64,000 nucleotides of DNA, taken from assembly GCF_900113955.1 (NCBI RefSeq), contig NZ_FORH01000007.1:1-64000 (forward strand), given 5' to 3'. Each line of letters opens with the position of its first letter. Position 1 is the stretch's first letter. Shown one piece after another: positions 5,039 through 16,164 of this stretch. Below the pieces are notes generated by a model that was given only the letters and a program-made list of their open reading frames with translations, did no database searches and had not been told where the DNA came from. This DNA comes from Celeribacter neptunius (lineage in GTDB: Bacteria > Pseudomonadota > Alphaproteobacteria > Rhodobacterales > Rhodobacteraceae). The position numbers and the translations under genes are program-made.

Positions 5039-6211
5039 TCACCCGGCCAGCGCAGCGAAGTCTTCGAGCATCAGGGGAGTGCCCTGTCCCATGGCCTTGC
5101 GGCTTCTCATATGCACCTTGGCATTGTTGACGGTTTCCACCGCCGTCACCCGCTCGCCATCGAGGCGCAGCATGGTGCCGTCGGGCAGTTCCTCGGCGCG
5201 ATCTTCCGGCGCGGCGAGACCTGCGATCTGCAACTTCCAGTCGGCCTGATCGGACCAGAACCATGGTACGGCACGGTAGGGGGCTTGCGCGCCTTTGATC
5301 AGCCGTTTGGCGATATGGCGGGCGTGATCGGTGGCCGCTTGCACGCTTTCAAGCCGCACCAAGCGGCCGCTGAATGGATCGGGGAAGCTGGCGCAATCGC
5401 CAAGCGCCGAAATGGCGGGGTCCTCGGTCAGAAGCTGTGTATCGACCTTGATGCCATTCTCGATGCTGAGCCCGGCCTCGGCGGCCAGCTCGGTATTCGG
5501 TACGACGCCCGCCGACAGAAGCGCGAAATCGCAGGCGATGCTTTTGCCACTGGCGAGCGTGAGGCCCTTGGCGGAGATCTCCGCCACCGGGTCGGCGAGC
5601 CTGAGCATGGTGCCGAGCGCGCGGTGTTTCTCGGCGAAACGTTCCGACATCTGCGCGGAGACGGCGCGGGCCATCAGCCGCGGCGCGGCTTCCGCCACGC
5701 TCACCTCGAGCCCGGCGGCGCGGGCCACGGCGGCAAATTCCAAGCCGATGAAGCCGCCGCCGATCACACCGACGGAAGACGCGCCGGAGAGGGCCGCGCG
5801 CAGAGCCTTCGCATCGGAGAGGCTGCGCAGATCGAGGCAATGTTCAATCCCGGGCAGGGGCGGGCGCAGGTTGCGGGTGCCCGTGGCGAGGATCAGATGA
5901 TCATAGGCGACGGGCTCGTCGTCGACCATGACCCGCTGCACCGCCCGGTCGATCGCCTCGACGCGGCTTCCCATGCGCAGGGTGATGCCCTGAGCGTCGT
6001 AGAAGCTTTCAGGCCGCAGCGGCAAGATCGTCGCGTCGCCGGTTTTCATATAGGTTTTCGACAGCGGCGGGCGCTGATAGGGCAGCTCCGGCTCATCGCC
6101 GATCAGGACGATCTCGCCCGCGAAACCTTCCTGACGCAATGACGCGGCGGCCTGAAACCCGCCTTGCCCGGCGCCGATGATGACGATGCGTTTCAGCTCT
6201 GTCGCGGCCAT
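5039..6211 (-). CDS. FAD/NAD(H)-dependent ferredoxin reductase (putidaredoxin-reductase type)
   Basis: This ~390-residue flavoprotein should pass electrons from NADH to the adjacent [2Fe-2S] ferredoxin. It has an N-terminal FAD-binding GxGxxG (RIVIIGAGQGGFQAAASLR), the family motif PYQRPPLSKTYM, and a second dinucleotide fold (SVGVIGGGFIGLEFA) for NAD(H). A later FAD motif is near AISALGDCASFP, and the C-terminal reductase domain follows. The architecture matches CamA/ThcD/PuR-type P450 redox partners. The start is either ATG at 6209-6211, overlapping the ferredoxin stop as TGATG, or GTG at 6212-6214. It is co-transcribed with the ferredoxin and P450 on its 5' side. Confidence 0.93.
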   Translation of the reverse strand: MAATELKRIVIIGAGQGGFQAAASLRQEGFAGEIVLIGDEPELPYQRPPLSKTYMKTGDATILPLRPESFYDAQGITLRMGSRVEAIDRAVQRVMVDDEPVAYDHLILATGTRNLRPPLPGIEHCLDLRSLSDAKALRAALSGASSVGVIGGGFIGLEFAAVARAAGLEVSVAEAAPRLMARAVSAQMSERFAEKHRALGTMLRLADPVAEISAKGLTLASGKSIACDFALLSAGVVPNTELAAEAGLSIENGIKVDTQLLTEDPAISALGDCASFPDPFSGRLVRLESVQAATDHARHIAKRLIKGAQAPYRAVPWFWSDQADWKLQIAGLAAPEDRAEELPDGTMLRLDGERVTAVETVNNAKVHMRSRKAMGQGTPLMLEDFAALAG

Positions 6212-6525
6212 CACTCATCGGCCTCCGGCAGATGCACCACGAGCCCGTCGAGCGCCTCGCTGACCTTGATCTGACAGGTCAGCCGCGAGGTCGGGCGGAC
6301 CTCCGCCTCTGCACAGTCGAGCATGTCTTCTTCGCCCTCGCTGGCCGTGCCGGTGCGGTCGTCATCGACATAGCAATGGCAGGTGGCACACATCATCGCG
6401 CCGCCGCATTCGGCGAGGATGCCGTCGATGCCATGGGCCAGCGCAACCTGCATCACGCTTTTGCCCGTTTCTGCCTCGACGGTCTGGCGGCGCCCGTCGG
6501 GCTGGACGAAAGTAATCTTCGCCAT
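6211..6525 (-). CDS. [2Fe-2S] ferredoxin (adrenodoxin/putidaredoxin type)
   Basis: This 104-residue ferredoxin is the electron carrier between the neighbouring reductase and P450. The cluster ligands are C40, C46 and C49 (CGGAMMCATC) and C84, with the C-X5-C-X2-C-X34-C spacing of vertebrate-type ferredoxins. C51 and C71 are additional. It lies between P450 (26 bp upstream) and reductase (1-bp overlap), so all three are one transcript. A second ferredoxin of the same class lies at 9003. Confidence 0.95.
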   Translation of the reverse strand: MAKITFVQPDGRRQTVEAETGKSVMQVALAHGIDGILAECGGAMMCATCHCYVDDDRTGTASEGEEDMLDCAEAEVRPTSRLTCQIKVSEALDGLVVHLPEADE

Positions 6526-6551: not shown

Positions 6552-7730
6552 TCAGTTCAGGGTAACCGGCAGGTTCAACGGGCCGCGGAAACCGAAGCCG
6601 CTCCAGATCACGCGTGCGGGATCTGCGAGTGTCATATTCGGAAAGCGGTCGAACAGGAGCGGCAGCATGATCTGGCCCAGGGTGCGCCGTGCCACCTGGG
6701 CGCCGGCGCAGTGATGCGGGCCGGAGCCGAAAGCCTGATGCGGGTGTTTGTCGCGGAACACGTTGTACTCTTCGCCATCCGCGCCATAGATCGCCTCGTC
6801 ACGGTTGGCGGAGGCCTGAATGGTCATCACCGTCTCACCAGGACCGATCAGATGGTCGCCGATCTGCACCTCCTGCGTGGTGCGCCGACCCGAGACCTGA
6901 ATCGGGGCGACCCAGCGCACGCCCTCCTCGAACGCATCGAGCCAGACGTCCTGACGTTTCACCTCGTCGAGCTGATCCGGGTTGGTCAGGAGCCCGTAGA
7001 CGATGGTGGCGAGCGCATCGCGGGGTTCGTTGATACCGCCGCCGATGGCGATCTTGATATTGGCATACATCTGGCTCATCGGGATCGGGTTGCGCCCGTT
7101 GAGCATCACCGAGAAGGCGGAGTTGTTGGGCTGCTCCGTGTGGCGCGGAATCACCCGTTCGAACAGGGCGTTCATCTCGGCATTGGCCTCGTCCGAGAGG
7201 CGGAACAGCTCCGGGTCCTCGCCGAAATTGCCGGCGCCGTCGATCAGACGTTGCGACCAGCGCTGCATCTCTTCGTCCGAGGCCTCTTCGAGCCCGAGCA
7301 TATGCGCCAGAATGCGCGCGGCGATCGGGCCGCAAAGATCCTTGAACAGATCCACGGTCTCGCCGCGCGGCAGGCGGGAGACATAGTCCTCGGCCAGTTT
7401 CGTATAGAGCTCGCCCCAGTCGGTGCGGATCACCTTGGGCGAGAATGACGGCTGCATCGCCATGCGTTCGGCGCGGTGTTCATCGCCATCCTTGCGCATC
7501 AGCGTATGGGCCTGAAATGCTGGTTTCATCGGTGTCATCGGATCGTCGGAGCTGAAAATCTCCGGCGTTTCCTTGATCCATTTGGTGTGTTCGGCACGGG
7601 TGACGAAAATCCGGTTGGTCTGGGCGACGCGGACCACCGGGGTCTCGGCGCGCATGCGTTTGTAAATCGGATAGGGGTCACGGGTCAGGTCGGCCAGGGT
7701 GACCGCCTCGTTCACGGGTAGATCGAGCAT
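6552..7730 (-). CDS. Cytochrome P450, class I, with atypical I-helix
   Basis: This soluble bacterial P450 has 392 residues. The heme-ligand loop is FGSGPHHCAG with C341 as thiolate ligand, and the K-helix ExxR is EEGVRW. The I-helix segment IAIGGGINEPRDA (residues 228-239) lacks the usual acid-Thr pair of the A/G-G-x-D/E-T-T motif, with Asn-Glu-Pro in its place. It heads the operon P450, ferredoxin, reductase, TRAP binding protein, and is divergent from a LysR gene across 135 bp containing nested palindromes. The substrate is unknown. The family number cannot be assigned from sequence reading, and it is only distantly like the second P450 at 11758. Confidence 0.94.
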   Translation of the reverse strand: MLDLPVNEAVTLADLTRDPYPIYKRMRAETPVVRVAQTNRIFVTRAEHTKWIKETPEIFSSDDPMTPMKPAFQAHTLMRKDGDEHRAERMAMQPSFSPKVIRTDWGELYTKLAEDYVSRLPRGETVDLFKDLCGPIAARILAHMLGLEEASDEEMQRWSQRLIDGAGNFGEDPELFRLSDEANAEMNALFERVIPRHTEQPNNSAFSVMLNGRNPIPMSQMYANIKIAIGGGINEPRDALATIVYGLLTNPDQLDEVKRQDVWLDAFEEGVRWVAPIQVSGRRTTQEVQIGDHLIGPGETVMTIQASANRDEAIYGADGEEYNVFRDKHPHQAFGSGPHHCAGAQVARRTLGQIMLPLLFDRFPNMTLADPARVIWSGFGFRGPLNLPVTLN

Positions 7731-7865: not shown

Positions 7866-8768
7866 ATGAACAAGGTCACGGACCCGATGGCGACGGACTT
7901 CCGGGCGCTGGATGTGCTGCTCCGGGTCTATCGGCTCGGATCGTTCACCCGGGCGGCGGAGGATCTGGAGATGAACCAGTCGGTGGTGAGCTACACGATC
8001 GACAAGCTTCGCGGCGTGTTCGACGATCCTTTGTTCGTGCGTGAGGCACGGCGCCTGATCGCCACGCCGCGTTGCGAAGAGGTGGTCACGGAAGCGGCAG
8101 AGCTGCTCGAACGGTTTTCGCAGCTGACGGCGACGCAGGATTTCGACCCGAAACAAAGCACCGAGACGGTGACGATCGCCTGCAACTATTATGAGCGTGA
8201 GCTGATCATCCCGCATCTCATACATGCAATCCGGGCCGAGGCGCCGAAGCTCAGGATCGAGATTGTCGATTCCTCCTATCTCGGCCATGACAAATTGCTG
8301 CGGATGGAGGCGGACCTGCTGATCGGTCCCTTCGTGCAGCTGGGCGCCGCCTTCTATGCCCGGGCGCTCTATGACGACCATTATGTCTGCATGATGGACC
8401 CGGCGCATCCGATGGCGAAAGCCGCGCTGAGCATGGAGGAATATCTGCCGCTCGATCATGTTTACATCACCTACGGCGGCAAGTGGAAATCGCGCTACAT
8501 GCAGGAGCTGGAGCGGCAGGGGCACGAGATCTCGATCGCCATTCGCACCCCGAGCCCGGCGGGGATTCAGACCCTGATCGCCGGGTCCGAGCTGGTCGCC
8601 ACAGTGCCGGAACGGCTGTCGCGCAAGCTTGGCCAAGGGCTGCACATTGCGCGCTGTCCCGTGCCGACCCCGGTCCAGATCCAGATGGTCTGGACCGCCC
8701 GGACCCATCGCTCGCAGATGCATCAATGGGTGCGGGATCTCGTCGTGCGCGCGACGCGCGGGGTCTGA
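7866..8768 (+). CDS. LysR-family transcriptional regulator
   Basis: This ~300-residue regulator begins MNKVTDPMATDFRALDVLLR. The start at 7866 is chosen because AAGGAG lies seven bases upstream; the upstream GTG at 7845 has no such site. The N-terminal winged helix is clear (GSFTRAAEDLEMNQSVVSYT, then DPLFVREARRLIATPR), and the rest is the LysR effector-binding domain. It has the look of the NodD/SyrM-like branch. It is divergent from the P450-ferredoxin-reductase-TRAP operon, which it most likely controls in response to the pathway substrate or a product. Confidence 0.9.
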   Translation: MNKVTDPMATDFRALDVLLRVYRLGSFTRAAEDLEMNQSVVSYTIDKLRGVFDDPLFVREARRLIATPRCEEVVTEAAELLERFSQLTATQDFDPKQSTETVTIACNYYERELIIPHLIHAIRAEAPKLRIEIVDSSYLGHDKLLRMEADLLIGPFVQLGAAFYARALYDDHYVCMMDPAHPMAKAALSMEEYLPLDHVYITYGGKWKSRYMQELERQGHEISIAIRTPSPAGIQTLIAGSELVATVPERLSRKLGQGLHIARCPVPTPVQIQMVWTARTHRSQMHQWVRDLVVRATRGV

Positions 8769-8949
8769 GGCGCAGGGGGGCATGTGCTTTCGGCCGGGCA
8801 TGTGCCGACGTTGATGCTGCCGTCTTCGTTGTAGGGATCTTCACAGATCTTCATGGAAAATAAGGGTTTGTCGGCTGCACGATCGGTCATCTGGGCCGGT
8901 CGCTGGCGCCGGGGCCGATCATTCGTGCTGTCTCGATTTCTGCAAATAC

Positions 8950-8981
8950 TGTTGATAATTAAATTAGTTGATATATAAACC
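8950..8981 (+). promoter_or_regulatory. Candidate promoter/operator of ferredoxin 2, matching the P450-2 promoter
   Basis: This is a 32-bp AT-rich element 53 bp ahead of the ferredoxin start. It contains a possible -35 (TTGATA, 8952-8957) and -10 (TATAAA, 8974-8979), 16 bp apart. A pseudo-palindrome TAATT-A-AATTA lies between them. By eye, 23 of 32 positions match the element at 11709-11740 ahead of the second P450, at nearly the same distance from the start codon. A repressor bound over the spacer is the simplest reading. Confidence 0.55.
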
Positions 8982-9002
8982 AAATAAAAGGGAGGAAGAA
9001 AG

Positions 9003-9326
9003 ATGGTCAAACTCATCTTCGAAACCGCACAGGGCCAGAGGCGCGAAGTTGACGCGCGGGCCGGCGACAACATCATGTTCACGGCGGTGAGCCATGGTGT
9101 CGATGGCATTGTCGGGGAATGTGGCGGTGCGGCCATGTGCGCGACCTGTCATGTCTATCTCGACCCGGCTTTCGCCGCGGTACTGACACCCAAGCAGGAG
9201 ATCGAGACCGAAATGCTCGACTGTGCCGCGGCCGAGGTGACCGGGGCAAGCCGTCTCGGCTGTCAGGTTCAGATCACACCGGAGATGGAGGGCATGGTGG
9301 TGCGCCTGCCGGAAGCGCAATACTGA
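9003..9326 (+). CDS. [2Fe-2S] ferredoxin, second copy in the P450 island
   Basis: This 107-residue vertebrate-type ferredoxin has ligands C40, C46 and C49 (CGGAAMCATC) and C87; C74 is extra. GGGAGG precedes the ATG at 9003. It stands alone as a plus-strand unit and has no reductase of its own. The shared promoter element suggests it is expressed with, and serves, the CYP199-like P450 at 11758. It resembles the palustrisredoxin class that supports CYP199A enzymes, and would have to be reduced by the enzyme encoded at 5039. Confidence 0.95.
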   Translation: MVKLIFETAQGQRREVDARAGDNIMFTAVSHGVDGIVGECGGAAMCATCHVYLDPAFAAVLTPKQEIETEMLDCAAAEVTGASRLGCQVQITPEMEGMVVRLPEAQY

Positions 9327-9341
9327 GGCTTGGGTCGCGGG

Positions 9342-9845
9342 TCAGTCGGTTTCCGTCGTCTTGTGCATCAGATCGCGGTCGAGTTTTTCGACCTTCGGCA
9401 GATTGTCGGCCAGCCGCTGCAACAGGTCAAACAGGGTCGCGCGCTGCGTCTCGTCCAAGCCGTCGAGCAGGGCCGCCTCGCGCCGATAGGCGATCTCGAT
9501 GATCTCGTCATGGACCTTGGCGCCCTGTTTGGTGAGCCACAACAGCCGCTTTCCGGTGACCAGGCGCGCGACGGCCAGCCCCTGTTCCTCAAGCTTGCGG
9601 GTCGAGCGGCTGACCACGGATTTGTTCATCGCGACCATTTCCGAGACCCGGAGCGCCTGGATGCCCGGTTCATTGCGCAAGGCCGACAGGATGCGCCATT
9701 CGTTGAGGCCGAGATCGAAGAGCGAGAGATAGAGCTGAGACGCGCCCCAGGACAGGCGGTTGTTGATCAGTGACAGGAAATAGGGGGCATAGCTTTCCGC
9801 CCGCACCGAGAGATCGCGTTCAGTGACAATTTCCGGTTCGGACAT
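9342..9845 (-). CDS. MarR-family transcriptional regulator
   Basis: This 167-residue winged-helix regulator starts at the ATG at 9843-9845, which follows AGGAG with seven bases spacing; the longer frame to 9959 has no ribosome site. The MarR fold is visible in LGLNEWRILSALRNEPGI, the recognition helix around VSEMVAMNKSVVSRSTRKLE and the wing near VTGKRLLWLTKQG. It is divergent from dhaK, with a 16-bp palindrome AGTTT-N6-AAACT at 9887-9902 in between. That palindrome, read on the other strand, resembles the promoter elements at 8950 and 11709, so this protein is the best candidate repressor of ferredoxin 2 and P450-2. Confidence 0.92.
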   Translation of the reverse strand: MSEPEIVTERDLSVRAESYAPYFLSLINNRLSWGASQLYLSLFDLGLNEWRILSALRNEPGIQALRVSEMVAMNKSVVSRSTRKLEEQGLAVARLVTGKRLLWLTKQGAKVHDEIIEIAYRREAALLDGLDETQRATLFDLLQRLADNLPKVEKLDRDLMHKTTETD

Positions 9846-9886
9846 GGCGGGGCTCCTGATTGTTCCGACATGGATAGCGAAGCCCG

Positions 9887-9902
9887 AGTTTAATTGCAAA
9901 CT
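9887..9902. promoter_or_regulatory. Palindrome between marR and dhaK
   Basis: The sequence AGTTT-AATTGC-AAACT is an inverted repeat in the 128-bp divergent region. Its reverse complement contains TTTGCAATTAAACT, close to GTTGCAAATTAAATT at 11710-11724. It is a plausible autoregulatory site for the MarR protein. This is inference from similarity only. Confidence 0.4.
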
Positions 9903-9973
9903 GCTCGAGGCCGATATGGCCCATAATAAAGAGACCGGGCGCACCGGCGCTGCGTTCAAGGGAGGAGAAACGC

Positions 9974-11665
9974 ATGAAGAAATTGATCAATGATGTGCCG
10001 GCCGTGGTGCCGGAGGCGCTAAAGGGGCTGGTGAGGTCTTCGGTCGGGCTCCGGCTGATCGAGGGCACGACCACGGTGGTGCGCGCCGATCTCGAGACGG
10101 TGCTTGCGGCGGGCAAGGTGGCGCTGATTTCCGGCGGCGGCTCCGGTCATGAGCCGGCCCATGCCGGCTATGTTGGGCCGGGCTTGTTGAGCGCGGCGGT
10201 GGCCGGCGACGTCTTTGCCTCGCCCTCGACCGATGCGGTGCTCACCGCGATCCGCGCTGTGGCCGGGTCGGGGGGCGTGCTTCTGATCGTCAAGAATTAC
10301 ACTGGCGACCGGCTGAATTTCGGTCTGGCGGCGGAAATCGCGCGCAGTGAAGGGGTCGAGGTCGATCTGGTGATCGTCGACGATGACAGCGCGCTGGGCA
10401 CGGCGGAGGAAACCGCGGGGCGGCGCGGCATCGCCGGCACGGTGTTCGTCCACAAGATCGCCGGTGCCGCCGCCGAAGCCGGATTGCCGTTGGCCGAGGT
10501 CAAGCGCCGGGCCGAAGCGGCGGTGGCGGCGACCGGTTCGATGGGCGTGGCGCTCTCCCCCTGTATCGTCCCGGCCGCCGGGACGCCGAATTTCGAACTC
10601 GGCGCCGGCGAGATCGAGATGGGTCTGGGCATTCATGGCGAGGCCGGGCTGGAACGCGGGCCGCTTTTGCCAGCGCGGGCGCTGGCCCATGCGCTGGTTG
10701 ACAAGATCGTCACGGATCGGGGGTTTGCCGCGGGTGAGCGGGTCGCGCTTCTGGTCAACAACCTCGGTGCAACGCCGCCGATGGAAGTGTCGATCATGGC
10801 CGGGGATGCACTCGATGCCTGCGCCGCCGCCGGGTTGGCGGTCGAGCGGATCTGGGCCGGGACCTTCCTGACCGCGATCGACATGGCCGGGGTGTCGCTG
10901 TCGCTGATGCGGCTCGACGCGGCGCGGCTCGATGCGCTTGACGCCATGGCCATGGCGCCGGCCTGGGCACTGCCCGGCCATCCGGGCGAGCCGGTCACGC
11001 TGCCTGTCTCGCTGCCGGGGCCGCAAACCCCCGTGGCGAAAATCTCGGCGGAGCAGGGCGATCTCGGCAGCGTCGCCGCGATCATGGCGGCTTGCCGGGC
11101 TCTGATCGCGACGGAACCGGAATTGACCCGTATGGATCAGATTGTCGGCGATGGCGATATCGGTCGTTCTCTGGCCGGTGGGGCGGAGGCGCTGATCGCG
11201 GCTGAGAGCGAGTTGAAGCCCCTCTCCGGAGCAACGCTTTGGCTGCGGGTGGGCGCGATCATCCGCGCCTCCACCGGCGGCACCTCCGGACCGCTCTATG
11301 CCATTCTGGCCACCGGCGCGGGCAATGCCCTGAACGCTGCCGGGCCGGAGCCATTGACGCAGCTCACCGACGCATTTGCCGCGGGTGTCGCCGCGTTGCG
11401 CGCCCTGGGCGGGGCCGTGCCGGGGGATCGCACCATGGTTGATGCCCTGGCCCCGGCCGTGAAAGCCATGCGACAGGCGCAGGATATCAAGAGTGCCCTG
11501 CGTCTTGCCTCTGAAGCGGCGGAGCTTGGCGCGGCGGCGACCGCCGAGATGGCGCCGCGACTTGGCCGGTCGAGCTATGTCGGGGCGCGGGTCCTGGGCC
11601 ATCGCGATCCCGGGGCGCAGGCGGTGGCGATCTGGCTTGCCGCAGCTGCCGAAGCCATGGCGTGA
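9974..11665 (+). CDS. dhaK: Dihydroxyacetone kinase, ATP-type, DhaK-DhaL fusion
   Basis: This 563-residue cytosolic kinase phosphorylates dihydroxyacetone, and usually glyceraldehyde, with ATP. The N-terminal DhaK half has SGGGSGHEPAHAGYVG and the substrate-binding His in GLGIHGEAGLERGP. The C-terminal DhaL half has the metal/ATP-binding acidic loop DQIVGDGDIGRSLAGG and STGGTSGPLYA. The single-chain layout is that of ATP-dependent enzymes such as Citrobacter DhaK, not the PTS-dependent split form. Start: GGGAGGAGAAACGC before ATG 9974. It sits between the MarR regulator and the second P450, which suggests that the pathway releases a triose. Confidence 0.95.
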   Translation: MKKLINDVPAVVPEALKGLVRSSVGLRLIEGTTTVVRADLETVLAAGKVALISGGGSGHEPAHAGYVGPGLLSAAVAGDVFASPSTDAVLTAIRAVAGSGGVLLIVKNYTGDRLNFGLAAEIARSEGVEVDLVIVDDDSALGTAEETAGRRGIAGTVFVHKIAGAAAEAGLPLAEVKRRAEAAVAATGSMGVALSPCIVPAAGTPNFELGAGEIEMGLGIHGEAGLERGPLLPARALAHALVDKIVTDRGFAAGERVALLVNNLGATPPMEVSIMAGDALDACAAAGLAVERIWAGTFLTAIDMAGVSLSLMRLDAARLDALDAMAMAPAWALPGHPGEPVTLPVSLPGPQTPVAKISAEQGDLGSVAAIMAACRALIATEPELTRMDQIVGDGDIGRSLAGGAEALIAAESELKPLSGATLWLRVGAIIRASTGGTSGPLYAILATGAGNALNAAGPEPLTQLTDAFAAGVAALRALGGAVPGDRTMVDALAPAVKAMRQAQDIKSALRLASEAAELGAAATAEMAPRLGRSSYVGARVLGHRDPGAQAVAIWLAAAAEAMA

Positions 11666-11708
11666 CAGAGGCTGGATCAGCCGTTCTGTCGAGCGGCTGC
11701 AAAATACA

Positions 11709-11740
11709 AGTTGCAAATTAAATTTGTTGAACATTAAACT
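11709..11740 (+). promoter_or_regulatory. Candidate promoter/operator of P450-2
   Basis: This element is 49 bp ahead of the P450 start. It has a possible -35 TTGCAA (11711-11716) and -10 ATTAAA (11733-11738) spaced 16 bp, with a 13-bp palindrome CAAATT-A-AATTTG between them. It matches the ferredoxin-2 element at 8950-8981 at 23 of 32 positions by eye. The palindrome inside the promoter spacer favours repression by a dimeric regulator such as the local MarR protein. Confidence 0.55.
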
Positions 11741-11757
11741 GAATTCGGGAGGAGCTC

Positions 11758-12981
11758 ATGCTCGAAACGCAGGACAATCAGGGGGGCATGCACGGCCGCC
11801 CGGTGTTGGACGTCGATCCGTTCAGCCAGGAGGCGCGTGACAATCCGGAGGCCTTCGACCGTGCGGTGCGCGCGGCGGGACCGGTGGCCTGGATTCCGAA
11901 ATACGGGGTCTGGATCACCGGGCAGGACGCGGTGGTGCGCGAGGTGTTTTCCGACTGGCGGCGGTTTTCCTCGGCCTATGGCACCGGCATGACCAATGTC
12001 ATCCGCGAGGAGCCATGGCGCAAGCCTTCGGTCATTCTCGAAGCCGATCCGCCGGTGCATACGCCGAACCGCAAGGTGCTGTCGCGGGTGCTTTCGGTGC
12101 CCGCGCTGCGCCGGCTCGAGGCGGATTTCAAACGCGAGGCGGAGCGCATGGTCGATGCGCTGGTGGAACGGCGCCGCTTTGATCTGGCGGAGGATCTGGC
12201 CTTTGCCTTCCCGTTCAAGGTCCTGCCCGATGCGGCGGGTTTGAGCCCCGACGGGCGGCATCATCTGATGCCCTATTCGACCCTGAATTTCAACGCGATG
12301 GGCCCCAAGAACGCGCTTTATCAAGAGGCCCGCCGGGTGGTCGAGGAACAGGGCACGTTCGAGTATGTCAGCGCCCAGATGCGCGAGGAAAACATCCGGC
12401 CGGGCAGTTTCGGAGCAGAGATCTACGCCGCCGCTCATGCAGGCGAGATCACCATGGAAGAGGCCGGCATGTTGGTGCGGGCGTTCATTTCGGCGGGGAT
12501 CGACACGACGGTGTTCGGCATCGGTATGACGCTGGTGGCTCTGCTGGAGCGGCCGGAACAATGGGACATGCTGCGGGCCGATCCGGAGCTGGCACGCCCG
12601 GCCTTTGAGGAAGGGTTGCGGTTCAACGCGCCGAGCCCGGTGATCGGGCGCACGACCTCGGGGCCGACCGAGCTGGCCGGGGTGCAGCTCGGCGGCGAGG
12701 AAAAGGTGCTGATGTGGCTCGCTGCGGCCAATCGCGATCCGGCGCGCTGGGAGCGCCCGGACGAATATGACATCACCCGCCGCCCGGTCGGGCATCTGGC
12801 CTTCGGTGTCGGTGTGCACGGCTGTGTCGGGCAGATGGTCGCCCGGCTCGAGGCCGAGGCGGTGCTGCGGGCGCTGGCGGCCCGGGTGAAACGCATCCAT
12901 CTGACCGGTGCGCCGGAAAAGGTGAATATCAACTGGCTCAGAGGGTATCATTCGATCCCGGTGGAGGTGGAGCCGGCGTAA
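11758..12981 (+). CDS. Cytochrome P450, CYP199-like (aromatic-acid oxidising family)
   Basis: This 407-residue P450 has a normal I-helix (SAGIDTTVFG; D249, T250, T251), the K-helix ExxR in FEEGLRFNAP and the heme loop FGVGVHGCVGQ with C356. Several stretches are very close to what I recall of CYP199A enzymes of Rhodopseudomonas: EKPWRxPSLILEADPP-like residues 84-99, NFNAMGP, GEKVLMxLxxANRDPxRW and HxCVGQxVARLEAE. Those enzymes demethylate or hydroxylate para-substituted benzoates with a [2Fe-2S] ferredoxin. The start has GGGAGGAG upstream. A TRAP transporter operon begins 91 bp downstream on the same strand. The actual substrate is an inference. Confidence 0.93.
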   Translation: MLETQDNQGGMHGRPVLDVDPFSQEARDNPEAFDRAVRAAGPVAWIPKYGVWITGQDAVVREVFSDWRRFSSAYGTGMTNVIREEPWRKPSVILEADPPVHTPNRKVLSRVLSVPALRRLEADFKREAERMVDALVERRRFDLAEDLAFAFPFKVLPDAAGLSPDGRHHLMPYSTLNFNAMGPKNALYQEARRVVEEQGTFEYVSAQMREENIRPGSFGAEIYAAAHAGEITMEEAGMLVRAFISAGIDTTVFGIGMTLVALLERPEQWDMLRADPELARPAFEEGLRFNAPSPVIGRTTSGPTELAGVQLGGEEKVLMWLAAANRDPARWERPDEYDITRRPVGHLAFGVGVHGCVGQMVARLEAEAVLRALAARVKRIHLTGAPEKVNINWLRGYHSIPVEVEPA

Positions 12982-13072
12982 TCAGAATCCCAAAAGGGAC
13001 ATGTAAAGGACTGAACTGAACCAAGCACATGCAAGCGCCGGAGGAGGGCGCGCGCAAGGGAGGAAACGCATC

Positions 13073-14194
13073 ATGAAACTGACAGTAGGATTCTGCGCCA
13101 TTGCAGGATTGGCGATCGGGGGGAACATCACCCCGGTCATGGCCGAAACGCCGATCTACGGGTCCTGGCCACCGGCCTCGGATTATCTCAACACCGATAC
13201 ATTGCCCGCGGCTTTTTCGATGATCGAAGAAGAGACCGGGGGCGATGTCACCTGGGATCTGATCGCCGGCGGGCAATTGGCGGATGGCCGTGGCTCTCTG
13301 GCCGCGGTGGGCGACGGGCTGATGCAGGGCGGGTTGCAGATCCCGGTCTATACGCCCGGGGCGATGCCCTCGCTGACGATGCTCTATTCCGTCGTGGTGC
13401 CGGGCAATGACCCGGTGGCTGTCGCCGGCGCGGTGAGCGAGACGCTGTTTCTCGACTGTGCCGAATGTTTGGCGGAGGAGAAGGAGAACAATGTCCTGCC
13501 GCTCGGGCCCTTCGCCTCGGCGTCCTATCGTCTGATGTGCACCGAACCGGTGGCATCGATGGCGGATCTGAAAGGCAAACGCATCCGCGCCACCGGCGGC
13601 TATGCGGAAATGGCGGCGATGGGCGGGGCGACGCCGATGGCGGTGACCCTGACCGAGGCGGTGAGCCTGTTGCAGCGTGGCGGGCTCGATTGCCTGATGG
13701 CGGCGCGCGAATGGCTTCAGACCTACGGCTATGGCGAATACGCGAAACAGGTGACCGACCTGCCTCTGGGCGTGGCCTCTCCTGCCGTCGGGCTTTTGAT
13801 GAACCGCGAGGCCTTCCTCGATATGTCGCCGGAGGCGCAGCAGGCGCATCTGCGCGCCTCGGCCTATGTGACCGCCAAGCATACGATCGGCAATTATGTC
13901 GAGCGCGATCAGGAAAGCTTTGCCCATCAGCAGGCCGAAATGGGGGTAGAGCTGGTCGCTCCGGGCGCAGATCTCACCGCGATGGTCGGCGGGTTCATCG
14001 AGGAGGACAAGGCGCGTCTGATCGAGAATGGCAAGGCGCTCGGCCTCAAGGACCCGGCCACCCTGATCGACAGCTATCTTGCCAATGTCGAGAAATGGCG
14101 CGGCTATTCGGCCGAGATCGACGGGGATGTCGAGGCTTTCGCGGCCAAGCTCTGGGATGAGGTCTATTCCAAGCTCGATCCGTCCAGCTTGTGA
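13073..14194 (+). CDS. dctP: TRAP transporter substrate-binding protein (DctP family), second copy
   Basis: This 373-residue periplasmic solute-binding protein has a Sec signal (MKLTVGFCAIAGLAIGG through PVMA). The mature part shows DctP-type features, including a conserved Arg region in MADLKGKRIRATGGYAEMAA and the late segment EWLQTYGYGEYAKQV. It precedes dctQ and dctM on the same strand, giving a complete three-part transporter. GGGAGGAAACGCATC lies upstream of the ATG. It is only distantly like the binding protein at 3870, so the two probably bind different or related ligands. The adjacent CYP199-like P450 suggests an aromatic acid. Confidence 0.92.
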   Translation: MKLTVGFCAIAGLAIGGNITPVMAETPIYGSWPPASDYLNTDTLPAAFSMIEEETGGDVTWDLIAGGQLADGRGSLAAVGDGLMQGGLQIPVYTPGAMPSLTMLYSVVVPGNDPVAVAGAVSETLFLDCAECLAEEKENNVLPLGPFASASYRLMCTEPVASMADLKGKRIRATGGYAEMAAMGGATPMAVTLTEAVSLLQRGGLDCLMAAREWLQTYGYGEYAKQVTDLPLGVASPAVGLLMNREAFLDMSPEAQQAHLRASAYVTAKHTIGNYVERDQESFAHQQAEMGVELVAPGADLTAMVGGFIEEDKARLIENGKALGLKDPATLIDSYLANVEKWRGYSAEIDGDVEAFAAKLWDEVYSKLDPSSL

Positions 14195-14300
14195 GACATG
14201 TCGAGACCATGTGTGTCTCGTGAGCTCGCGGGTCAGCGCATGTTGCTGGCCCGTTCCGATCTATCGTCGAAATATCCATAGTCGAAATACGAGGGCTTTG

Positions 14301-14846
14301 ATGAAACCTCTGCAGAAATTTGCGACGGGGCTGGCCGATCTGTTGTTCTGGATCGCGCTGGGCGCCGGGGCGCTGATGATGACCCATGTCACGGTCGATG
14401 TGATCTCGCGCACCCTGTTCAACCATCCGTTGCCGGGGACAGGCGAGATCACCGCCTCCTATTACATGATCGCCGTGGCCTTTCTGCCGCTGGCCTGGGT
14501 GAGCTGGCGCGATCAGCATGTGACAGCGGATCTTTTCGTCAGCCAGATGGGGCCGCGCCTGCAAAAGCTGGTGGCGCTGCTCACCGATCTTCTGGCCATC
14601 GCCTATGTCTCGACCTTCGTCTGGCAGACCTGGCTCTCGGCCCTCTCAAAGACCAGACGCGGCGAAGTCTGGGAGATTTTCGGGGGCTATCTGCCGATCT
14701 GGCCGACGCGCTGGCTTTTGCCGATCGGTGGTGCTGCAATGGTGCTTGTGCTGGTGATCAAGCTCCTGCTGCGCCTGTCCGGCGGGGATACGCCGCGACA
14801 GGCACCCGATGCCGCCCCGGATCTGCCCAGTTCGGAAGGGGTGTGA
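14301..14846 (+). CDS. dctQ: TRAP transporter small permease subunit (DctQ)
   Basis: This 181-residue inner-membrane protein has four predicted helices, including LADLLFWIALGAGALMMTHV, YYMIAVAFLPLAWVSW and LLPIGGAAMVLVLVIKLLL. The DctQ hallmark WRDQHVTADLF is present. The start ATG at 14301 has GAGG six bases upstream; the open frame to 14079 overlaps the binding-protein gene and is not credible. It lies 106 bp after dctP and is followed directly by dctM. Confidence 0.9.
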   Translation: MKPLQKFATGLADLLFWIALGAGALMMTHVTVDVISRTLFNHPLPGTGEITASYYMIAVAFLPLAWVSWRDQHVTADLFVSQMGPRLQKLVALLTDLLAIAYVSTFVWQTWLSALSKTRRGEVWEIFGGYLPIWPTRWLLPIGGAAMVLVLVIKLLLRLSGGDTPRQAPDAAPDLPSSEGV

Positions 14847-14847
14847 T

Positions 14848-16164
14848 ATGGAGACGCTCTATTTCGGGCTGGCGACGCTGGCGATCCTGTTGACCCTGAT
14901 CGGGCTGCGTGTGCCGATCGGCGTGGCGTTGGGCGTCGTCTCGCTCGGCGGGCTGGCCTATGTGCGCAACGTGCCGATTGCCCTGTCGATCCTGCGTGAA
15001 ACGCCGTTTTCCTTTGCCGCAAGCTGGGACCTGACCGCGATCCCGATGTTCCTGCTGATGGGGGCGATCGCCAACCAGTCGGGGATTTCCTCGGCGCTGT
15101 TCCGGGCGGCACGGCTGTGGTTCTCGGCCCTGCCCGGCGGGCTGGCGGTGGCGGCCAATATGGCCTCGGCCGGGTTTGCGGCGGCCTGCGGCTCTTCGTT
15201 GGCTTCGGCCGCCGCGATGGGCCGGCTGGCGATCCCGGAAATGCTGCGCGCGGGTTATGACAAGGGGTTGGCCACAGGTGTCGTGGCTTCTGCCGGCACC
15301 TTGTCGGCGCTGATCCCGCCCTCGATCCTGCTGGTGCTCTACGGCGTCTTTGCCGAGGTCTCGATCTCGCGCCTGCTGATCGCCGGTGTGATCCCGGGGC
15401 TTTTGACCGGGGCGGCCTATGTCGTGATGATCCTGATCCGATGCAAGCTCAACCCGGCACTGGCGCCGAAGCTCGATGCTGAAGACCTGGCCACGCTCAA
15501 ACGCGATCGCATGTCGTCGCTCAAGGAAACCTGGCCGCTCGCCGTGCTCATTCTCGGCATCATCGGCGGGCTTTACGGTGGCATCGTGACCCCGACCGAG
15601 GCCGGAGGTGCCGGTGCCGCCCTGGCGCTCGTGATCTCGCTGGTGCAGCGCCGGATGAGCCTGCGACGCTTCATCGAAGCGTTGAAAGAGGCGATGGCGG
15701 TGACGGCGCAGATCTTTTTTGTCGGCATGGGCGCGGTGATGTACACGCGGCTTTTGTCGCTGACCGGGGTCTCGGGGCTTCTGGTCGATATGATCGGCGG
15801 CTGGGCCGGCGATCCGCTGTTGATCGTCATCGCCCTGTCGGTGATCTATCTCGTCCTCGGCATGTTCCTCGATCCTCTCGGGATCATGCTGATCACCATG
15901 CCGGTTTTCCTGCCGATGATCGATACGCTCGGGCTGGATCTGATCTGGTTCGGCATCATCGTGGTGAAATATATCGAGATCGGCATGATCACACCGCCGA
16001 TGGGGATGAATGTTTTCGTGGTCAAATCCGTGGTCGGCGATCAGGTGCCGATCTGGACGATCTTTCGCGGCGTCGGCTGGTTCCTCGCCTGCGAGGTCGT
16101 GGTGATGGTGCTGCTGATCGCTTTCCCTTCGATCACTTTGTTCCTGCCGGATCTGATGCGTTGA
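14848..16164 (+). CDS. dctM: TRAP transporter large permease subunit (DctM)
   Basis: This 438-residue polytopic membrane protein forms the Na+-coupled transport channel of the TRAP system. Many hydrophobic helices and DctM signatures are visible (IPMFLLMGAIANQSG, ASAGTLSALIPPSILLVLYG, TPTEAGGAGAALALVISL). The start ATG at 14848 lies one base after the dctQ stop, so the two are translationally coupled; the frame opens earlier only within dctQ. It ends the plus-strand operon. Confidence 0.94.
   Translation: METLYFGLATLAILLTLIGLRVPIGVALGVVSLGGLAYVRNVPIALSILRETPFSFAASWDLTAIPMFLLMGAIANQSGISSALFRAARLWFSALPGGLAVAANMASAGFAAACGSSLASAAAMGRLAIPEMLRAGYDKGLATGVVASAGTLSALIPPSILLVLYGVFAEVSISRLLIAGVIPGLLTGAAYVVMILIRCKLNPALAPKLDAEDLATLKRDRMSSLKETWPLAVLILGIIGGLYGGIVTPTEAGGAGAALALVISLVQRRMSLRRFIEALKEAMAVTAQIFFVGMGAVMYTRLLSLTGVSGLLVDMIGGWAGDPLLIVIALSVIYLVLGMFLDPLGIMLITMPVFLPMIDTLGLDLIWFGIIVVKYIEIGMITPPMGMNVFVVKSVVGDQVPIWTIFRGVGWFLACEVVVMVLLIAFPSITLFLPDLMR

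Follow-up and report, generated by a model that had tools for sequence, protein, structure and literature searches.

A conserved MarR-type regulon with candidate operators predicted around a CYP199-type cytochrome P450 of Celeribacter neptunius

The window analyzed here, a stretch of 64,000 nucleotides from Celeribacter neptunius (contig NZ_FORH01000007.1, positions 1 to 64,000), carries a cassette of genes around a cytochrome P450, and the subject of this report is a repeated element upstream of its ferredoxin and P450 genes, together with the MarR-family regulator encoded between them. The cassette begins with a forward-strand gene for a [2Fe-2S] ferredoxin (Fer2) of the putidaredoxin/adrenodoxin type (9003..9326), followed on the reverse strand by marR (9342..9845), whose 167-amino-acid product is the proposed repressor. 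The remaining genes lie on the forward strand: dhaK for a fused Dak1-Dak2 protein of the dihydroxyacetone-kinase family (9974..11665), the CYP199-type P450 gene (11758..12981), the gene for the TRAP transporter substrate-binding protein DctP (13073..14194), and two genes with starts set by homology, 14301..14846 and 14848..16164, which from their position we take to encode the DctQ-type and DctM-type subunits. DctP matches solved TRAP binding proteins weakly, and these matches indicate no substrate. Within 8950-16164, none of the genes was identified as encoding a reductase.

The regulator was assigned from Pfam, an AlphaFold2 model and fold matches. The Pfam models MarR_2 and HTH_24 match above their cut-offs and the Pfam model MarR below it (20.6 vs 24.6), and the best of five AlphaFold2 models has a mean predicted local distance difference test score (pLDDT) of 89.3 (range 62.5 to 89.3). 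All of the best 50 matches listed in a fold search with this model are MarR-type regulators, among them MexR and entries titled PcaV with its natural ligand and HosA with a 4-hydroxybenzoate-type ligand. The protein thus has both the winged-helix domain and the fold of the MarR family, and, as in that family, a palindromic site is found in its own and neighboring promoters, the palindromy of the tandem boxes described below being variable. PcaV and HosA are phenolic-acid repressors that share its fold, and its paralogues stand beside pobA; the identity of PcaV and HosA to the cassette MarR is 19-25% in the fold search. As to the P450, the best 18 sequences from the PDB include CYP199A4 and other CYP199 entries (E values of 6e-108 to 5e-103), with 362-365 bits to 2fr7, 7tnf and 4dnz, whereas the next kind, CYP125MRCA, reaches 177 bits. 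This places it in CYP199. The pairing of such a P450 with a [2Fe-2S] ferredoxin recalls the CYP199A4-HaPux-HaPuR system of Rhodopseudomonas palustris HaA2, whose use in an engineered host is treated in PMC10825196. Unlike in that system, ferredoxin and P450 belong here to separate units, in the company of a Dak kinase and TRAP genes.

The two 32-bp stretches at 8950-8981 and 11709-11740 are identical at 23 positions, and their left edges lie 53 bp and 49 bp from the ATGs of the ferredoxin and the P450, respectively, just as the original prediction for this DNA had claimed. When the upstream regions (8931-9002 and 11696-11757) were dinucleotide-shuffled, the best ungapped 32-mer match averaged 17.3 (standard deviation 1.2), and 23/32 was reached, in any register, by 1 of 2000 pairs. 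Each repeat consists of two tandem 14-bp boxes, GTTGCNNNNTAAAC, with a period of 16 bp and a gap of 2 bp; the form of the box is GTTGC-N4-TAAAC, with the arms GTT.../...AAC. The candidate operator boxes of the ferredoxin promoter are GTTGATAATTAAAT (8951..8964) and, 16 bp later, GTTGATATATAAAC (8967..8980), and those of the P450 promoter are GTTGCAAATTAAAT (11710..11723) and GTTGAACATTAAAC (11726..11739), all read on the forward strand. The operator had earlier been seen elsewhere, in an AATT-A-AATT palindrome between the -35 and -10 hexamers. That palindrome does exist at both window sites; since none of the 24 tandem elements located in relatives contains it, it was rejected as the operator, and the tandem boxes take its place.

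A third site lies in the divergent gap between marR and dhaK. The palindrome AGTTTAATTGCAAACT expected there is present at 9887-9902, and it holds a single palindromic candidate operator, GTTTAATTGCAAAC (9888..9901), 42 bp before marR. In 12 relatives with this gap the distance from box to marR is 39-45 bp. GTTTAATTGCAAAC is unchanged in eight of them, and the other four keep 13 (L023 and L028), 11 (L016) or 8 (G153) of its 14 bases. A degenerate second box, exactly 16 bp further toward marR, was spotted by eye before it was scored. Over 13 sequences, the window included, its mean score is -12.1 vs -35.1 +/- 2.9 in shuffles, and none of the 5000 shuffles scored as high.

The sharing of these sites was predicted to be conserved, and it is. 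A P450 scan of genome contigs gave 14 loci from 13 organisms (Pseudooceanicola marinus twice), with titles that include Oceanicola, Pararhodobacter, Rhodobacter, Celeribacter, Aquibium, Aquamicrobium and Ramlibacter. marR is found in 13 of the 14 (65-88% identity in 12 of them, 42% in Ramlibacter, L026; absent from L021). TRAP genes occur in 12 (not in L021 and L026), with DctP after the P450, the DctQ-type gene after DctP, and the DctM-type gene kept in these numbers. One further orthologue (52%) stands outside the 14 loci, in genome G153 (L004, L036 and L067); L004 and L036 are the same place, as are L003 and part of L024. In 13 relatives, 24 tandem elements were located, 10 before the ferredoxin, 11 before the P450 and 3 where the ferredoxin is missing, and all of them fit the same layout with the 2-bp gap. 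Ten of the 30 columns (positions 2, 3, 4, 12, 13, 18, 19, 26, 28 and 29) are invariant in 24 of 24. In L016 and L067, where dhaK stands immediately before the P450 gene, the P450 gene lacks a preceding box. A matrix made from relatives only (21 elements, one of which, in L016, had been placed 16 bp too early) ranked the two window sites first in the 64 kb, with scores of 47.8 and 45.5, and the best non-overlapping place scored -0.5. With 24 correctly placed elements the window sites score 44.2 and 43.3, and the relatives' own 35-49. The three elements that lack a ferredoxin (L018 5082-5111, L019 3548-3577 and L036 1501-1530) sit just 3' of marR. They look like relics of ferredoxin promoters, or may start a short RNA in antisense to the last part of marR. 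Full dhaK was found in 12 of the 14 P450 loci (a partial match in L021, none in L018), and this fused dihydroxyacetone-kinase-family gene is an unexpected partner of a CYP199.

The motif is restricted to the cassette in the genomes searched. In the 4.4-Mb genome of C. neptunius itself, the tandem motif occurs twice when up to 3 mismatches are allowed (reversed control, 0) and GTTTAATTGCAAAC once at up to 1 mismatch, so that a regulon extending beyond the cassette was rejected at these thresholds, chance matches being expected to dominate among looser single boxes. A search of 390 genomes of the order that allowed up to 1 mismatch located 6 tandem sites in 4 genomes, the two window sites included (reversed control, 0); by their coordinates, the other three genomes are those of L016, L024 and L028, and no new relative was added. 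In 16 selected genomes, a set without that of L017, 23 tandem sites were found in 13 (control, 0). Since the sites of G222 and G303 are identical at identical coordinates, these two were counted as one genome and the distinct sites number 21. G260 and G128, in which only distant paralogues had turned up, and G304 (Ramlibacter) gave none. Every tandem site found adjoins marR, dhaK, the ferredoxin or the P450 of a cassette.

These results bear on the possibility that the repeats are nothing but a pair of AT-rich sigma-70-like promoters, or a promoter duplication, without a shared regulator. Both stretches are indeed AT-rich in a GC-rich genome, with a -35-like TTG inside box 1 and a -10-like TATAAA or ATTAAA inside box 2. 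The predicted pair with a 16-bp spacer is plausible at the ferredoxin site (TTGATA-N16-TATAAA) and poor at the P450 site (TTGCAA-N16-ATTAAA). Neither was called when 8760-13080 was scanned for the sigma-70 consensus. In the spacer between the presumed hexamers lie two conserved stretches, GTTG (box 2) and AAAY (box 1), which bare promoter sequence does not explain. The third site, moreover, has one full box only, and the tandem motif was not met outside the cassette in the 390 genomes. We therefore give the promoter-only explanation a very small chance.

Which protein would read the boxes can be approached from the genes that travel with them. Gene families found in four or more of the 14 loci comprise those of the cassette, frames antisense to them and two families of transporters; among them, marR alone was recognized as a regulator gene. 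The two clusters of Pseudooceanicola marinus differ in the same sense: L025 has both marR and the boxes, and L021 has neither marR nor boxes in the 13 kb examined, with a best tandem score of -8.8. In Ramlibacter, with its MarR of 42% identity, GTTGCAAATGCAAC precedes the P450. Another regulator could bind the boxes instead, for example the LysR protein encoded at 7866-8768, upstream of the ferredoxin promoter, whose gene stops some 180 bp short of the first tandem element. However, a close homologue of it (76%) is present within the 6-kb flanks in only 1 of the 14 loci (L027; the match in L028 is 22%), the remaining box-bearing loci have boxes without a close lysR, and the single box is located in the divergent marR-dhaK gap. 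No further regulator was recognized in the families of at least 4 loci, a comparison made within the loci. LysR, not conserved with the boxes in these flanks, was rejected, and control by a regulator other than MarR appears highly improbable. The original proposal of a single regulon under the linked MarR gains support at the sequence level from the shared operator type, the related gap site, the 13 relatives and MarR being the sole recognized co-traveler.

A related palindrome stands near many paralogous MarRs. The set comprised MarRs of the order with 30-43% identity to that of the window and one (L095) with 54%; 36 loci less four duplicates left 32 loci and 108 kb, without the cassette-orthologue loci L003, L068, L069 and L070. 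Among 36 paralogue matches, six have no locus (one of these is L013), and five lie outside the count. The motif GTTG-N6-CAAC, whose arm spacing is that of the cassette boxes, occurs at 28 sites in 20 of the 32 loci, against 1.25 expected, and other arm spacings from 0 to 20 gave 0-5 sites. The whole-genome background (414 sites in eight genomes, about 34.6 Mb) corresponds to 1.3 per 108 kb. In ten wide regions (L057-L066) the genes behind the site could be read. For example, it precedes pobA in L060, L061, L062 and L063 (the products in L060, L062 and L063 exceed the NCBIfam cut-off for 4-hydroxybenzoate 3-monooxygenase, and that in L061 is named by the start of its sequence only). In L064 and L066 it stands before proteins resembling the O-demethylases DesA and LigM, which score below the cut-offs of the corresponding models. 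TRAP-type binding proteins follow it in L057 and, by sequence resemblance, in L058. In G260, which belongs to the genus of the window, GTTGCTATAGCAAC precedes an operon of TRAP, CYP199-like, ferredoxin and MarR genes. Across L057-L066 and L071-L094, GTTG-N6-CAAC looks like an operator rule of a MarR subfamily. The recognition helix of the paralogues mostly reads DKxxxSR vs NKSxVSR in the cassette MarRs (e.g., IDKAAVSRS vs MNKSVVSRS), and the paralogue wing is up to three residues longer. Judged by eye, these differences may correlate with the TAAAC arm; yet L026 has a short wing and a symmetric CAAC box. The short wing is also found in L095, whose genome (G528) carries the cassette as well.

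Taken together, the cassette is supported as a MarR-type regulon that is conserved and has clear candidate operators, and we consider it very probable that MarR is a repressor on tandem, promoter-overlapping operators and on the gap box, with an aromatic acid as the predicted releasing ligand. In this scheme, whose binding, repression, promoter positions and ligand we infer from sequence, a MarR dimer would sit on each tandem box and on the box in the marR-dhaK gap. The bound dimers would cover both presumed hexamers and block RNA polymerase, so that the ferredoxin, P450-TRAP and dhaK units and marR itself would be repressed, until an aromatic acid imported by the TRAP transporter frees the operators. 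Alternatively, MarR on the boxes might chiefly activate transcription, or might play both roles and recruit polymerase once it has bound its ligand; the weak consensus of the P450 promoter would suit such a role. However, boxes that overlap both presumed hexamers occupy what would be the usual place of a repressor, and MexR of Pseudomonas aeruginosa, a MarR-family repressor, likewise binds two promoter-overlapping sites with inverted GTTGA arms, PI and PII of mexAB-oprM, as given in PMC9892617. Activation thus seems quite unlikely. The likeness of the proposed repressor to MexR has its bounds: the PII oligonucleotide in PMC9892617 is GTTG-N7-CAAC (15 bp), whereas the cassette boxes have 14 bp, a TAAAC right arm and a partner at 16 bp, and MexR operators serve an efflux pump while the cassette boxes precede a P450 system.

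Several observations weigh against repression by MarR through these boxes. Most of the 14-bp boxes are imperfect palindromes (2 to 7 of 7 positions complementary), and with a period of 16 bp the two boxes do not lie on the same face of the helix, which is unusual for cooperative dimers. The second marR-side box is decayed in the window (score -29.0) and in L027, and it starts with GTT in 8 of 13 sequences, not in the window, L017, L019, L027 and G153. As for the paralogues, 12 of the 32 loci have no GTTG-N6-CAAC site at all, just 11 have one in the 350 bp that precede the MarR match, and the closest paralogue, L095, has none within 1.5 kb. Many relatives and paralogues also come from the same genera, so that the counts are not independent.

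In the open PubMed Central literature, we found no paper on the regulation of such a CYP199 P450 cassette, and nothing usable on the Dak-P450 pairing, on MarR with pobA in Roseobacter or on one paralogue operator string. The conserved cassette now has a concrete candidate operator. If our reading is true, two separate promoters sharing one operator would make the P450 pathway switch as one unit. GTTG-N6-CAAC would be a simple operator rule for a subfamily of MarR proteins encoded near aromatic-acid genes and could predict further regulons, and together with the Dak kinase it could help to guess the natural substrate.

Some indication of this substrate comes from the pocket. In an alignment with CYP199A4 read by eye, Phe182 is kept and Phe185 is replaced by Met, and of the residues that form the pocket for the benzoate carboxylate (Arg92, Ser95, Arg243 and Ser244; roles as in PMC11854964) three of four are kept, Ser244 being changed to Ala. 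These residues make a benzoate-like substrate likely, though perhaps one other than 4-methoxybenzoate. Since a Dak kinase recurs in the cassette, a triose may be among the products. A rather unlikely extension would be an undescribed aromatic-ether regulon, in which a MarR subclade with a short wing and an altered helix, using a 14-bp operator derived from GTTG-N6-CAAC, couples uptake, ferredoxin, CYP199 P450 and dihydroxyacetone kinase; the P450, as the recurring kinase would suggest, would O-dealkylate a carboxylated aryl glyceryl ether, and the kinase would send the released triose (dihydroxyacetone or glyceraldehyde) to glycolysis.

A second P450 gene lies close by on the reverse strand (6552-7730). 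Its product is related to 6g71 and to the aromatic O-demethylase GcoA, and its cluster has its own ferredoxin (6211-6525) and reductase (5039-6214), with the lysR gene discussed above standing divergent to it. The reductase of this cluster may also serve the CYP199 system.

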